Part shown: in pieces, positions 32,678 to 39,363 of the stretch
Layout of the letters: every line of letters starts with the position of its first letter
Position numbering within the stretch: the first letter of the stretch is position 1
Assembly (NCBI GenBank): GCA_902794895.1
Contig: CADBIY010000003.1
Location: 1-64,000, forward strand
Direction of reading: 5' to 3'
Source of the DNA: Candidatus Avelusimicrobium vaccinum
GTDB taxonomy: Bacteria > Elusimicrobiota > Elusimicrobia > Elusimicrobiales > Elusimicrobiaceae
Length of the DNA: 64,000 nt
The notes under the pieces: model-generated
What the model saw: only the letters and a program-made list of their open reading frames with translations
Database searches by the model: none
Told to the model about the DNA's origin: nothing
Translations under genes and position numbers: made by a program

Positions 32678-35600
32678 TTATTCTTCCAGCATTACGGTGG
32701 AACTGCAACCGTCTGCTCCTAACGAAGTGGGTGGCGGTGTTTTGCGGCCCAAGTTTTTGATTTTATCGATTGACTGAGCCCACAAATTCTTGCCGACTTT
32801 CACTAAACTGGAATTGGCTAACATGCCCGGCGTTAACATCACGCTTGCGACAGCAGCAGCTTCCGCGACCACTAAATCCATGCCACTAAATCCGGTTGCG
32901 CCCACCAACCAACGCATCGGGAAAGACATCACGGCCGCTACTGGCATGGTATAGTTAATTAATAAGGCAATTTCTCGGCGATGTTTTGGCGACAGGCCTA
33001 CCATATATTCATACATTTGCGAGAAGAAGTTCCCTACCCCGAAACTTGCAATAATTGCTCCTGCAATCAAAGAAGACACATTGTTCCCGGCCGAAGCAGC
33101 CATCATAGCCGTTCCGCCCAAGGAAAACAGGGAAGATAAAGCATACATACTTCCGCCACTGATACGTCGGCTAATTATATTCCCTAAAATACGGCCCGCG
33201 GACATAGAACCGTACAGGGCTAAAGCCGTATAAGCATTGGCTTGTGCGCCGTCGCCCAATAAATTATGCATGGCAAAGGAAAAACCGTTGGAAACGCTTA
33301 ATTCGTGCATTGTTGCCAACGCCATAGCCGCCACCGACGGAGCCAATTTTGGTGTCATTAAAACTTTCCACAAACTGACATCCCGATGATCTAATGAGTC
33401 AAAGGCTTTCTGCAGTGCTATAGCACCGGTTTCTGCTTCTTCTGCGGAAGCCCCTCGGGCCAGTAATTTTTCACGCAAGGCATTTATACTCTCGGTTTCA
33501 TGTATAGAAACTTGCTTGGCTAAAGATGTCTTAAATTGTCTGATTTCTACGCGGGTCAAATCATCAATACTGGATTTAATTTCTTTCGCCACGCGCATAA
33601 GTATTTCACTCCCTTCTAACGAATGAATCGGTTGTTCGGCTAACGTCGTAGTTGTAGTGGCTAACATCTCTTTGAAATTATTACTGACTGTTGTTAAATT
33701 CATAGGGAAAGCATCTTTGTAAGCAATCCGGCGCAATTTCATGGCAGTCCATAACCCGAATATCGAGTACGGAATATAACTAGCGGAGAAATCTAATCCC
33801 AAGTCAATACCAAACGCATATTTCGCGGCCACATTCGTCATCCAGGGAAAGGCCAAGAATGCCATCGTTCCTAAATTTTTAAACATCGTGGCTGTTTGGA
33901 AAAGGACTACGTCACGCGCAGCCGCAGGAGTTTTGGTAAATACTTCTACAAAACGCCGTCCTAAATATTTTAAATTGTAAGTAGGGGCGGCGGGACCTGC
34001 TTGCGAAGCCGTTTTGGCTGGTTCGCTAAACGAATTTTTGGGAACTATTTTTCCGCGGTTTGCACTGATTAAATTATTTTGTACAAAGCGTGTAATATTG
34101 GTCCCCAAAGCAATCATTACACTTGAACTAATAAATCCGGCCAACTGCAACGAAGTCATTAGGTTATTTCCAAGGGCACCATATAATCCGGAGGCCAATG
34201 CAGTAGCACCCCCTGCCACAAACAGGCCTTGTCCCCAGCGGAGCACTTTTGCTTCTCCATACCGTTTGAGTAAGGGATTCACAAAACCCATCATCACCGG
34301 TAAAACGTTATTAATACTTAACATAATTAAACTCGCAGAAGATTCACCCATTGTAGAACGGGCTTTTAATTCCGGAGCCGTGGTTTTACCTAAACCAATT
34401 TGAAGGAATGGAACCGCCTGTGTTAATATACCGGTTTTATTACGGGTAGAATGAATTTCTAACGAAAAATTTGTACCGGGATTTCTTTGCATCAGCGGCA
34501 CCCAATACTTACTGTCTTCTTTAGGTAACCGGACATAGTAACCTTCTAATAAGGTTTGTTTCCCTTCCGGACCTTCATAATAAATCTTTCCGCTTTTTTC
34601 AAGCAGGATTTTGCCTTCTTGGGTTCCTTTCGGCAGCAATTTAGCATCTACTTCAAACAAAACATTTAATTTTTTCCCACTGTTAAAATCAACTGCCGGT
34701 AATGATACCGCTTTATAACGGACATTTGGACGGCGTTCAAGTTTTACACGTAATTCCCGGTGTAAAAAGGAACTTTCCCCTGCAGAAAGTGCCAATTGAT
34801 ACAAAGCCCCTGTAGAACTGGAAAGTTTAAAGAAAAAGTGTGCCATTTGTTTGGACGGTTGGGTCAAGTTACGGAGTTCAAAAATATGATCTTTTGATAA
34901 AACCACCCGGTTATATCCATCCGCTTTAATACCGGTATCAATAGTTACATCCACATTATGCAAAATACTTTCAACGGCTTCGCTGTTTTCCACAGTTAAT
35001 TTAAACCCGCTTTCTGCCACTTCTGCATGAGAAGGAGCCTCCGCCATTGCCTGCATATCTTCCGCTTCAATGCTTTCACTGGGGGCGAGGGAACGTTCAT
35101 ATACCGGGCGAACGGTATTATCATGCAATCCGGGTTCTTCTCGTATTGCTTGGCGGGTGGGAGTATCTTCTTCTTTGTGCCAGAAACGGCTTAACCAATT
35201 CCAGGCTTTTTCTGTCGTTTTCAAAATAGCAAATACCGGAAGCCCGCCATATAACACTCCGGAAGAAGATGAAGAAACTGCAGTAGTAGTTCCAGCACGT
35301 GCAACCGGTTGCTTTGCGGCAGACCCGGTTACATTTACCGGAAATTCTGTTTGAGGTAACTCGGACGGAGCCAATTGCATCCCAGAGGCCGTACCCAATA
35401 AATTCATGTCTGTTAGATCTGCAACAACACCGGATGCAGCAGGGGCCTGGGAAACAGAAGAAGTTTCGGCCGCGGGTTTTGCGGTCCGTCCTAATTCCAT
35501 CCATTTTTCTGTTGCAGCTAACGAATCGGAAGCATTTAATCCGTTTACTAAACTGCCGCTTTCCAACCAAACCGCTAATCCGGTCACTTGTTGACCCGGT

Positions 35601-36451
35601 TGTGCCGCTACAGAAGGATTTAAAGAAACCGGCAAGTGATTTTCCCGCGCGTAACTTGTTAATCCTAACCAAAATTCACCTTCTTGTTTTAAGGGAGCGG
35701 CCCACTCATTCAATAAGTCATACGCTCCTAACCGTAATAGTCCGCGTCCGGTTAGCCGGGTGGCAACTTCCGCTAACGGTCCACTTGCAGCAGCCTGATA
35801 TAACGAAATTAACGCTTGCGCATCTGCCGCTGTCCCGGTAAGCGCCAATGCCGCCGCATCAGATAAGGCTTTCCGGCAGGATTCGGCTGCATTTACTCCT
35901 TCCGTTGTACTTAATACGGTTCTCATGGATTGGCCGGAAATGGTTTTAAAAGCGGGCAAGTTTTTTTGCAAATCAGATCTTAAGAAATCTAAGGCTGTCT
36001 CTAATTGGGCAGGAGTTACCTGATGGGTTAGGGAAAGCAATACAAATTCATTGCGAAGTAGTGGAGCCTGTTCTAAAACAGGAGTGGCTAAAATGCGTTG
36101 GGCTACTCGGCTATAATCTCCATTAACTGCCAGGGAGGGGATTGCCGTTTTAGCAATCCAAGGCTGGTATTGAACAACCGTAGGAAGTTGCCGTTGCAAC
36201 CGGACCACTTGCCGGGTTGTTTGCGTTTGAATAGCCTGCGTGCGGGCCGTTACATGGGCAATTTGTTTTGTATTAGCACCAACGTTGCGTAATAACGTCG
36301 GCATATGAGTACCCGCTTGTGCAGCAAGACGGCTTGCTTGTGCCCCGGCACGGGAAACGGCGCGTCCTGCAGGAACCAATTGGGCCAAAGCAGGCGACGC
36401 GCTGTTAATCAGAATAGCAAAACTTAATATACCGCACAAAAGCGATTTCAT
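32678..36451 (-). CDS. Exported protein fused to MFS-like membrane domain
   Basis: A 1257-residue protein. Residues 1-23 are a signal peptide ending ALA-Q. Residues 24-690 are a large soluble part: helical Ala/Gln/Arg-rich segments, a Ser/Ala/Thr-rich linker around 340-400, and a beta-rich part (about 480-690). From about 700 the sequence is hydrophobic, with at least ten likely membrane spans in two blocks (about 700-950 and 1070-1230) split by a charged helical loop, a layout like a major facilitator transporter. Homology to a known transporter is not certain. Preceded by a short coupled frame and a terminator-like hairpin. Unlinked to recognisable substrate genes. Confidence 0.6.
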   Translation of the reverse strand: MKSLLCGILSFAILINSASPALAQLVPAGRAVSRAGAQASRLAAQAGTHMPTLLRNVGANTKQIAHVTARTQAIQTQTTRQVVRLQRQLPTVVQYQPWIAKTAIPSLAVNGDYSRVAQRILATPVLEQAPLLRNEFVLLSLTHQVTPAQLETALDFLRSDLQKNLPAFKTISGQSMRTVLSTTEGVNAAESCRKALSDAAALALTGTAADAQALISLYQAAASGPLAEVATRLTGRGLLRLGAYDLLNEWAAPLKQEGEFWLGLTSYARENHLPVSLNPSVAAQPGQQVTGLAVWLESGSLVNGLNASDSLAATEKWMELGRTAKPAAETSSVSQAPAASGVVADLTDMNLLGTASGMQLAPSELPQTEFPVNVTGSAAKQPVARAGTTTAVSSSSSGVLYGGLPVFAILKTTEKAWNWLSRFWHKEEDTPTRQAIREEPGLHDNTVRPVYERSLAPSESIEAEDMQAMAEAPSHAEVAESGFKLTVENSEAVESILHNVDVTIDTGIKADGYNRVVLSKDHIFELRNLTQPSKQMAHFFFKLSSSTGALYQLALSAGESSFLHRELRVKLERRPNVRYKAVSLPAVDFNSGKKLNVLFEVDAKLLPKGTQEGKILLEKSGKIYYEGPEGKQTLLEGYYVRLPKEDSKYWVPLMQRNPGTNFSLEIHSTRNKTGILTQAVPFLQIGLGKTTAPELKARSTMGESSASLIMLSINNVLPVMMGFVNPLLKRYGEAKVLRWGQGLFVAGGATALASGLYGALGNNLMTSLQLAGFISSSVMIALGTNITRFVQNNLISANRGKIVPKNSFSEPAKTASQAGPAAPTYNLKYLGRRFVEVFTKTPAAARDVVLFQTATMFKNLGTMAFLAFPWMTNVAAKYAFGIDLGLDFSASYIPYSIFGLWTAMKLRRIAYKDAFPMNLTTVSNNFKEMLATTTTTLAEQPIHSLEGSEILMRVAKEIKSSIDDLTRVEIRQFKTSLAKQVSIHETESINALREKLLARGASAEEAETGAIALQKAFDSLDHRDVSLWKVLMTPKLAPSVAAMALATMHELSVSNGFSFAMHNLLGDGAQANAYTALALYGSMSAGRILGNIISRRISGGSMYALSSLFSLGGTAMMAASAGNNVSSLIAGAIIASFGVGNFFSQMYEYMVGLSPKHRREIALLINYTMPVAAVMSFPMRWLVGATGFSGMDLVVAEAAAVASVMLTPGMLANSSLVKVGKNLWAQSIDKIKNLGRKTPPPTSLGADGCSSTVMLEE

Positions 36452-36827: not shown

Positions 36828-37310
36828 TTAGTTAAATTTTTCACGAAGTGCGCGTTGTACGCAAGGAGGAACCAGCGTGTCTAAATTTCCACCGCAACGG
36901 GCCACTTCCCGCACGGCGGAAGAACTGATATATTGTACCTGTTCACGGGCGGGTAAGAATACCGTCTCTAATGCCGGATTAAATAACCGGTTATAATGCG
37001 CTTGAGCCATTTCGCTCTCTACATCCGCACCTCCGCGAATGCCCCGCACCAAAATTTTAAGTTGGTGTTTTTGGGCATAGTCTGCCAGCAATCCTGCGGC
37101 GGTATCTACGATAATATCCGGATGATCTGCTAAAGCCTGTTTAAGAAGATCCACGCGTTCCGCTAAAGAAAAAAGGCCCTTTTTCGCCCCGTTTTCCAAT
37201 ACAAGCACTACCAGCGGCCCCCATAATTCCTTCGCTCGAAAAATAATATCCAAATGTCCGTATGTTACCGGATCAAAACTCCCGGCATATAATGCAATCG
37301 TTTTTTTCAT
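36828..37310 (-). CDS. coaD: Phosphopantetheine adenylyltransferase
   Basis: A 160-residue nucleotidyltransferase that makes dephospho-CoA from ATP and 4'-phosphopantetheine. GSFDPVTYGH (residues 10-19) holds the TxGH nucleotide-binding motif, and the C-terminal ISSSAVRE matches the family ISSTxVRE. Normal length. It starts seven bases after the exported NDK gene on the same strand, so the two are cotranscribed although functionally unlike. Confidence 0.95.
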   Translation of the reverse strand: MKKTIALYAGSFDPVTYGHLDIIFRAKELWGPLVVLVLENGAKKGLFSLAERVDLLKQALADHPDIIVDTAAGLLADYAQKHQLKILVRGIRGGADVESEMAQAHYNRLFNPALETVFLPAREQVQYISSSAVREVARCGGNLDTLVPPCVQRALREKFN

Positions 37311-37317
37311 AAAATTC

Positions 37318-38178
37318 TCAAAAATCTAAAACTTCTCCCGGTTTAAACCACAAGGCAATTTCTTGTTCCGCTTCGTCAGGTGCACCCGAAGCGTGTACAC
37401 AGTTTTGAATTACGCCGTTAACGGTATGCCCGTACATCCCGCGAATACTGTTAGGGTCTGCTTTTTCCGGGTTTGTTGCGCCGATTTCCGCACGCACTTT
37501 TGCGATGGCATTTTCCCCTTGGAAAACAAATGCATAAATTTTTTGATTGGGCACATTATTGTATTTTCCCAGCATATACGCAACGACTCCGTCCACAAAC
37601 GGTGTGCCCGCCAAATGTTTATAATGTTCCCGAATGATTTCTTCCGTGGCGGAAACTACTTTAGAACCAACCAGTTGCAATCCCAGTTTATCCAACCGGT
37701 CCAAAATTACTCCACTAATACGCTGTTCAATTGCGTCGGGTTTTATTAAAACAAGCGTACGTTGCAACTTGCCTCCGTTATTGACCCCATTGAATTGTAT
37801 ACTACCAGAGCCCGTTTCTGTTGTCTTCAACGATGTAACTGCCCCTCCCGTTAAAATTTCTTGACGGGGAAGAACCGCCCGGCGGACGGCACGGCTCACT
37901 TTTCTTTGTAAACTAACCGCTAGCGATTCTGTATCTGCTCCGGCCACGAACCCGGTTTTTTGGCCGTTCAAGGACCTACGGCAGGCACCCCTCGTTGCAT
38001 TCCCTACCCCGGCAACAGACACTTTAGGCAGTTGAACTGACACGCGTTCCCCTGCCTCAAGAGCCGCTTTACTGGCCTTGGTCATACCGCGTAGCCCCGA
38101 TACAATGTGTGCCGCCGCAGGAAACGGCACTGTTACAAAAATCAATAAACCGATTAAACAGCCTATGACCGACTTCAT
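37318..38178 (-). CDS. Nucleoside diphosphate kinase with signal peptide
   Basis: A 286-residue protein. Residues 1-23 are a signal peptide (ending FPAAA-H). Residues 24-139 are a low-complexity, basic linker with no recognised fold. Residues 140-286 are a complete NDK domain: Lys146 in IKPDA, Arg229, Thr235 (GATNP), Arg246, Asn259 and the phosphate-carrying His262 (NCVHASG). NDK interconverts nucleoside tri- and diphosphates and is normally cytosolic and about 140-150 residues long. A short insertion (KYNNVPNQ) precedes the KIYAFVF strand. No second, cytosolic ndk is in the window. The export signal is the odd feature. Confidence 0.85.
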   Translation of the reverse strand: MKSVIGCLIGLLIFVTVPFPAAAHIVSGLRGMTKASKAALEAGERVSVQLPKVSVAGVGNATRGACRRSLNGQKTGFVAGADTESLAVSLQRKVSRAVRRAVLPRQEILTGGAVTSLKTTETGSGSIQFNGVNNGGKLQRTLVLIKPDAIEQRISGVILDRLDKLGLQLVGSKVVSATEEIIREHYKHLAGTPFVDGVVAYMLGKYNNVPNQKIYAFVFQGENAIAKVRAEIGATNPEKADPNSIRGMYGHTVNGVIQNCVHASGAPDEAEQEIALWFKPGEVLDF

Positions 38179-38241
38179 ACTTTCTCCTTAATGCATAGTA
38201 TGTGATGTTAATCACCTTTTATATATGGTATCATAATTTAT

Positions 38242-39363
38242 ATGATAAAAAACCCCTTTTCCGATGAAATCTACTTGCGCCGCACCCATCCGCACAAACC
38301 GGATTTGCGGGATGAATTTTTCCGCGACCAAACCAAAATCATTCATTCTTTACCCTTTCGCCGGTTAAAACACAAAACACAGGTTTTTTTTGCCCCCAAT
38401 AACGATCACATTTGCACACGTATTGAACATGTGCTGCATGTGGCAACTATTGCCGCCACGATTTGCCGGGGACTTAAAAAAAGTGGGAATTGGGAGTTAA
38501 GCGAAGACCTTGCTTATGCAATCGGACTAGGACACGATTTAGGCCATGCTCCCTTTGGGCATGAAGGCGAGCGCGCGATTGATGCCTGCATCCGACCCAA
38601 CCGTTTTTTACATGAAGTCAACAGTTACCGGGTTGTAGAACATTTAGCCAACTATGGGGAGGGGCTGAATTTAACCTTTGCGGTAAAAGACGGAATTATT
38701 TGCCACTGCGGAGAAGATTTTGCAAACAACCAGTTGCGCCCGGCGGCCGTTCCCAACGATTTGGAAAAAATTACCGGCCGCAATCAAATGCCCTCCACTT
38801 ATGAAGGATGTATTGTACGGTTGGCAGATAAAATTGCTTATTTAGGCAGAGATATTGAAGATGCGATTAAAGCCGATTTAATCACTACCCAAGACATTCC
38901 CGTATCGGTTCGGGAGGAAATCGGCACTTCTAACGGAGAAATCATTAACACGCTTACCCTGGATTTAATCAACCATTCCAAAGATCAGGATTGTATCGGA
39001 TTTTCTGATGAAAAATTTGCCCTCATTTCGCAATTGCGCACCTTTAATTACGAACGCATTTACCACAATAGCCAAATGCGCCAACGTAAAGAAACCATTG
39101 ATAAATGTATTCACGATTTATTTGACTATTTCCGTCAATTATTTTCACGGTATCAGTTTGACTTTGAGGCTTATCAAAAAGAAGGCAAATTAACGGCTTT
39201 TAATTTCGCCAAATATATGCGTTCCATGCAAGCGGTCTATCACAATGATCCGGCACTGCTTGATACGATTATTGCCGATTATATTGCCGGCATGACAGAT
39301 TCATATGCGCTGGATGTGATGGAAGATGTAATCTTACCAAGTTCTATCAAATTTTTCAGTTAA
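38242..39363 (+). CDS. dgt: dGTP triphosphohydrolase-like HD protein
   Basis: A 373-residue HD-domain enzyme. RRLKHKTQVF (about 34-43), RIEHVLHV and HDLGHAPFGHEGE contain the metal-binding His/Asp set of the dGTPase family, which hydrolyses dNTP to the nucleoside and triphosphate. Length matches the shorter type (dgtpase-like) rather than E. coli Dgt. A promoter-like TATCAT is eight bases from the ATG and there is no Shine-Dalgarno. It ends at a bidirectional terminator. Confidence 0.88.
   Translation: MIKNPFSDEIYLRRTHPHKPDLRDEFFRDQTKIIHSLPFRRLKHKTQVFFAPNNDHICTRIEHVLHVATIAATICRGLKKSGNWELSEDLAYAIGLGHDLGHAPFGHEGERAIDACIRPNRFLHEVNSYRVVEHLANYGEGLNLTFAVKDGIICHCGEDFANNQLRPAAVPNDLEKITGRNQMPSTYEGCIVRLADKIAYLGRDIEDAIKADLITTQDIPVSVREEIGTSNGEIINTLTLDLINHSKDQDCIGFSDEKFALISQLRTFNYERIYHNSQMRQRKETIDKCIHDLFDYFRQLFSRYQFDFEAYQKEGKLTAFNFAKYMRSMQAVYHNDPALLDTIIADYIAGMTDSYALDVMEDVILPSSIKFFS

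Follow-up and report, generated by a model that had tools for sequence, protein, structure and literature searches.

A nucleoside diphosphate kinase gene with a predicted signal peptide and a basic linker in Candidatus Avelusimicrobium vaccinum

An export signal is unusual on a bacterial nucleoside diphosphate kinase (NDK), a housekeeping enzyme that keeps nucleotides in balance. The excerpts of the literature consulted mostly call the secreted NDKs of bacteria leaderless, which leaves the route and the reason of their release under debate. A natural gene fusion in the 64,000-nucleotide stretch of DNA analyzed here (the window) appears to encode NDK export directly. Is the product made from its upstream start and sent out of the cytoplasm, or is it an ordinary enzyme behind an irrelevant open frame? 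Our best reading, to which we assign a probability of about 0.7 from sequence comparisons, is that ndk was duplicated, that one copy acquired an N-terminus for export and that its product now works in the envelope.

The fused gene and its catalytic domain

The fused gene (37318..38178, minus strand) was delineated by open reading frame, profile match and alignment; it starts with ATG and encodes 286 amino acids. Pfam, alignment, AlphaFold and Foldseek placed the catalytic domain at residues 139-286 (37321..37764, minus strand). The NDK profile PF00334 matched residues 139-282 over profile positions 1-134 of 135 with 125 bits (cut-off 27). K146, R229, T235, R246, N259 and H262, which from NDK structures we take to be the catalytic positions, were all invariant in a 12-row alignment. 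The codon for His262, presumably the position phosphorylated in NDKs, lies at 37393..37395 (minus strand). The open reading frame, the profile match and the invariant residues agree with an earlier note on this DNA, which had described a complete NDK domain with these catalytic residues. With these residues intact, the protein is a candidate for phosphotransfer activity.

An AlphaFold model of the protein shows the NDK fold with confidence, the mean pLDDT from residue 141 onward being 82-96 in 12 of 15 ten-residue blocks and 69-77 in the other three. When the protein was compared with the PDB using Foldseek, NDKs occupied all of the best 50 rows (best E 1.4e-15). The bacterial NDK equivalog model NF001908 (PRK00668) gave 125.4 bits, under the NCBI cut-off of 155. 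Since this cut-off is also missed by the ordinary NDK of the same genome (127.1) and by a similar fusion in a second species of the genus (genome G086; 124.1), the shortfall reflects the lineage and not the fusion.

A search for a second ndk without a signal, as the earlier note had proposed, located one. The window's genome (G000; 1.45 Mb, 98.9% complete, 30 contigs) encodes a single other NDK, an ordinary protein of 152 amino acids on contig 25 that has neither leader nor linker, and G086 likewise carries a separate ordinary NDK. The catalytic domains of the fused and ordinary proteins of the window's genome are 81% identical and match over 148 columns without a gap, so that both have the short insert before the catalytic His that is seen in comparison with human NDK 3.

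Leader, linker and choice of start codon

Residues 1-23 (38110..38178, minus strand) form a predicted Sec signal peptide with A-A-A before the presumed cut. We scored leaders with a simple rule of our own in place of SignalP, which asks for a positively charged N-terminal region, a hydrophobic core free of acidic residues and then a small-x-Ala motif, and 8 of 52 automatically chosen window ORFs passed it. The fused NDK and its G086 orthologue passed, while the ordinary NDK and the product of a possible internal start at codon 138 failed. The signal peptide described in the earlier note is thus leader-like by this rule, and its architecture recurs in G086. By the established motif rules, residues 1-23 contain no twin arginine and the N-terminus has no usable lipobox. 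A lipoprotein was rejected, as Cys7 is preceded by only six residues and the G086 N-terminus has no Cys.

Among the eight ORFs that pass, one looks by eye like a pilin and another like a membrane protein with a single span; the rule therefore cannot separate cleaved leaders from anchors. An uncleaved leader that tethers the NDK to the inner membrane, facing outward, would suit the marked hydrophobicity of the core (a ten-residue mean of 3.08, exceeded in only one of the 52 ORFs) and the long flexible basic linker. Against this stands the Ala-x-Ala before the presumed cut in both species, and we consider such an anchor very improbable.

The linker (residues 24-137; 37768..38109, minus strand) has a net charge of +11, in keeping with the basic linker noted previously, and its G086 counterpart, at +14, is also basic. 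AlphaFold assigned pLDDT values below 50 to most of residues 1-135, with a weak helix at 81-102 and another drawn with low confidence at 24-41. Pfam searches of the linker gave matches at chance level (best E 0.067).

Is this stretch translated? Frame 0 is open through leader and linker in both fused genes, and the other five frames contain stops in each. The codon-usage score of the window linker was 0.021; off-frame windows reached at most 0.085, and windows within genes had a minimum of 0.002 and a median of 0.396. For the G086 linker, frame 0 scored 0.142 versus 0.135 for one reverse frame, and when the leader was included one reverse frame (0.157) exceeded frame 0 (0.116). Mismatches between the two N-termini were lowest at second codon positions (0.39 vs. 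0.59 and 0.58), in a protein-guided alignment that favours such an outcome. Within the signal peptide, pN (0.30) and pS (0.33) were nearly equal. By these codon and frame measures, the linker has the character of fast-evolving coding sequence under weak constraint. The low linker score, the reverse-frame scores in G086 and the near-equality of pN and pS were counted against our reading.

The upstream ATG has a strong ribosome site in both species: AAGGAG at a spacing of 5 nt in the window (38184..38189, minus strand) and AAGGAGG at a spacing of 4 in G086. According to the earlier note, a second in-frame start near residue 135 with a good ribosome site, if used in vivo, would refute export. As sequence, such a start is present in the window, where GGAGG (37772..37776, minus strand) lies 4 nt before TTG codon 138 (37765..37767, minus strand), but G086 keeps the TTG without a ribosome site. 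Initiation at TTG 138 may therefore work in the window's species, but it does not appear to be a conserved feature of the two fusions.

The strongest rival to our reading, though an unlikely one, is that the gene yields two products, an exported NDK from the upstream ATG and an ordinary-length cytosolic NDK from TTG 138. The GGAGG precedes a TTG that stands exactly at the beginning of the NDK domain, and TTG is the start of 3 of the 52 automatically chosen window ORFs, some of which may be wrong. G086, however, has no site before this TTG, and a GGAGG there precedes another linker TTG (codon 41), so such sites can arise by chance. The ordinary NDKs of G000 and of a further genome, G018, begin MAN and MAT at an ATG three codons before the equivalent of TTG 138, and this ATG is gone in both fusions. 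A cytosolic enzyme is, moreover, already supplied by the ordinary gene. That TTG 138 alone is used, the upstream frame being a non-functional remnant and the protein an ordinary cytosolic NDK, would account for the strong internal site and the poor coding score of the linker. It is hard to reconcile with G086, which has the same architecture, open frame and upstream ribosome site without the internal one, and with homology of the two N-termini at the protein level (below); we regard it as very improbable.

A second fused gene and the history of the locus

Leader plus linker (137 amino acids) were used as a query against 66 genomes of the genus, many of them incomplete. Besides the window gene itself, the sole match of weight was in G086 (E 4.7e-5, 30% identity); eight further weak matches had E values from 0.03 to 0.39. 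The G086 stretch stands directly before an NDK domain in a fused protein of 278 amino acids, encoded likewise between dgt and coaD. The two NDK domains are 90% identical, leader plus linker about 30%. Leader and linker together gave a local alignment score of 113 (shuffle mean 35) and the linker alone a score of 74, and none of 500 shuffles scored as high in either case. These scores indicate that the N-termini of the two fused proteins are homologous at the protein level. Recurrence of the same fusion at the same place also led us to reject an assembly artefact or chimera.

Two complete NDK domains were present in only 2 of the 66 genomes, G000 and G086, a count that is a lower bound since many of the genomes are incomplete; G006 has two NDK fragments, at contig ends. 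No NDK was matched in 11 of the 66 (G011, G030, G064, G031, G015, G019, G032, G004, G022, G020 and G084), among them 6 of the 36 good-quality genomes, while the window's genome has two. In another search, G020 gave a 21-residue NDK fragment at a contig end.

Could leadered NDKs be widespread in the phylum? This was rejected on a survey of NDK frames longer than 200 amino acids, in which none of 20 others among the matches listed was leader-like. For 19 of them, each in-frame start that precedes the active-site motif was put to the leader rule, and 0 of 19 frames had one that passed; by reading, the twentieth (L119) has its sole upstream start directly before the NDK domain. One long frame (L122) continues beyond the end of its contig. 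Within a scan of close relatives, leadered NDKs beyond the genus were rejected as well, since 1 of 13 NDK loci, that of G086, had a leader-like start.

A maximum-likelihood tree of NDKs was computed from 32 rows, 26 of them different, with G036 left out because its motif was not found and Waddlia not represented. A phylogeny of NDK domains with the same linker had been proposed in the earlier note; here the two fused domains form one clade (100/99). With the ordinary copies of G018, G076, G000 and G086 this clade makes up a sub-lineage group of lower support (94/92; an open fork), within which its position is weak (88/66). The fused pair has a dN of 0.055 and a dS of 1.83 (dN/dS 0.030), compared with ratios of 0.020-0.052 for six pairs of ordinary copies and 0.051-0.102 for fused versus ordinary domains (four of eight pairs computable), all of them approximate because dS is near saturation. 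The low ratio suggests that the fused NDK domain is under purifying selection.

The four ordinary copies of the sub-lineage differ from both fused domains at 14 positions, 7 of which fall within residues 241-257. Clustering to this degree was reached in 133 of 20000 random draws, and in 170 of 20000 when draws were limited to variable positions. In sequence, these lineage-specific changes lie near the catalytic residues Arg246 and His262. They allow a bolder proposal, that of a neofunctionalized envelope NDK which the basic linker, and perhaps a large protein encoded nearby, would position, and in which the changes at 241-257 would tune it to a different phosphate donor or acceptor outside the cytoplasm; we put this forward as a speculative and rather unlikely version. 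In that case a gut bacterium that is presumed to be free-living, and is not known to be an intracellular pathogen, would have a Sec-exported phosphotransfer enzyme.

The fused gene is followed, 7 nt downstream, by coaD (36828..37310, minus strand; TIGR01510, 162.7 bits, cut-off 103.3), and its divergent neighbour is a dgt-type HD phosphohydrolase gene (38242..39363, plus strand; TIGR01353, 179.2 bits, cut-off 152.35). The best 30 of 65 coaD matches in the genus were read by script for the offset of the dgt start motif. It was 2115-2143 in 23 of the 30, and 3016 and 3031 in the two fused genomes; in four loci cut by contig ends the motif appeared at 2116-2131 once the missing flank was added. 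One locus had no dgt motif before its contig end, and two gave a second motif match. Thus 27 of the 30 loci have dgt and coaD divergent and directly adjacent, and the fused ndk amounts to about 0.9 kb of inserted DNA.

A four-protein neighbourhood tree of four genomes groups G000 with G076 (98.7% SH-aLRT) if G018 is taken as the outgroup. G076, the closest relative in this tree, is without the fused ndk, which for this one neighbourhood and four genomes points to a probable loss in G076. Its absence there also makes the gene dispensable, a point counted against our reading.

Between coaD and the gene for a large exported protein, G076 has a pilin-like gene (L074, 4309-5643; 444 amino acids, with a prepilin-type start by eye). 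Promoter and terminator scans found no more than in shuffles. A near-palindrome, ATCATATAAATTATGAT (38230..38246), overlaps the first 5 nt of dgt and is closely matched at the corresponding position in G086, G076 and G018. Allowing up to 2 mismatches, it occurs once in the window against 0.06 expected. One of its arms consists partly of dgt start codons, which may account for some of the conservation, and the element is a possible candidate operator of the divergent pair.

Also on the minus strand, at 32678..36451, a gene encodes a 1257-amino-acid protein. Its signal peptide resembles the one on the fused NDK; beyond it come a long soluble part, which has no Pfam match, and a C-terminal stretch with a weak MFS match (E 3e-5, below the cut-off). 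Leader and linker were compared, with 500 shuffles each, with four large proteins, namely this one and three relatives. For leader plus linker, shuffles scored as high in 0, 0, 0 and 1 of 500 cases for G086 and in 0, 2, 16 and 22 for the window. Without the leader, the G086 linker gave 0 and 2 of 500 against two of the large proteins but 393 and 164 against the remaining pair; the window linker was not significant against any of the four (190, 38, 165 and 490 of 500). Common origin with the N-termini of the large proteins is therefore likely for the leader, as far as such scores can tell, and only suggested for the linker. The resemblance between linker and 1257-residue protein that the earlier note had reported resides mostly in the signal peptide; for the window linker by itself it was not significant. 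Proteins with N-termini like that of the 1257-amino-acid protein are encoded close to coaD in G086, G076 and G018, and there is a weak match to its N-terminus on contig 8 (E 0.0096).

Export and relation to known NDKs

Export is supported by the recurrence in G086, at the same locus, of leader, start with ribosome site and basic linker, and further by the separate ordinary ndk in both genomes. The export proposed in the earlier note thus gains from conservation in G086 and from the ordinary copies, with the internal start in the window remaining as a contrary element.

The history that we propose for the envelope NDK would begin with duplication of ndk in the ancestor of a small sub-lineage of the genus. 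The copy would have settled between dgt and coaD, which are divergent, and there been joined to the end of a signal peptide and basic linker resembling those of the nearby large exported protein. Made from the upstream ATG, the product would be exported by Sec and cut after residue 23. The genus has a Gram-negative envelope, and the protein would exert its NDK activity in the periplasm or on the cell surface, where, judging from its family, it would use His262 to transfer the terminal phosphate from stray NTPs to other NDPs. It might also act on host ATP or use another phosphate donor, as the earlier note suggested. The basic linker would probably hold it to an anionic envelope component, and the ordinary NDK on the other contig would keep the cytosolic role.

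The closest published counterpart is in Waddlia chondrophila. According to the excerpts of PMC13318545 consulted, this bacterium has two ndk paralogues, the second of which (WcNdk2) has an 18-amino-acid predicted signal peptide, with a reported SignalP 6 probability of 0.999, and upon heterologous expression is found in host cell compartments in a signal peptide-dependent manner. Excerpts of PMC7143554 also give wcw_1545 ndk2 with a predicted signal peptide. Like the fused NDK, WcNdk2 is, in these excerpts, a second paralogue beside an ordinary one and combines a predicted signal peptide with conserved kinase motifs. As described there, it differs in belonging to another phylum, in the location of ndk2 in a probable operon with ndk1 and in its size of 18 kDa, which leaves no room for a 114-residue linker. 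The fused gene, in contrast, is at a locus other than that of the ordinary ndk, and its product nests among the NDKs of its own genus. That the fused pair forms one clade among these NDKs argues, in a tree without Waddlia, for an origin separate from chlamydial ndk2. A leadered second NDK has thus probably arisen independently here, with a long basic linker and a genomic history that can be traced.

Other secreted bacterial NDKs resemble the fused NDK, in the portions of the sources used, in being outside the cytoplasm and in their proposed action on extracellular nucleotides. Those portions describe them as leaderless, as using other routes or without reporting a leader, whereas the fused gene encodes a Sec-type leader. 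NDKs are called leaderless in the excerpt of PMC5121656, on P. gingivalis, and the excerpt of PMC2275737 describes a PrsDE-dependent NDK without a signal peptide; secreted NDKs are also cited, in passages of the same kind, for P. aeruginosa, V. cholerae and M. tuberculosis. Among the open-licence papers listed, none was recognized as describing an Elusimicrobium NDK with a leader, and 0 papers named both Elusimicrobium and NDK.

The duplication, placed on a tree, provides a matched pair of leadered and ordinary NDKs in each of two genomes. With such pairs one can ask what role an NTP-dependent enzyme has in a place poor in NTPs, and whether relocation is followed by changes close to the active site.

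A search of the window's own genome for the ATP/ADP translocase family PF03219 gave 0 matches, but so did the control search, and the result is therefore no evidence of absence. At least one 5′-nucleotidase C-terminal domain occurs in 65 of the 66 genus genomes; being genus-wide, these enzymes give no specific link to the fusion. Three neighbouring 5′-nucleotidase-type genes lie on contig 15 of the window's genome (27266-30648; L129-L131). By eye, the N-termini of their products are leader-like, that of the third resembling a lipoprotein, which makes nucleotide handling outside the cytoplasm plausible.
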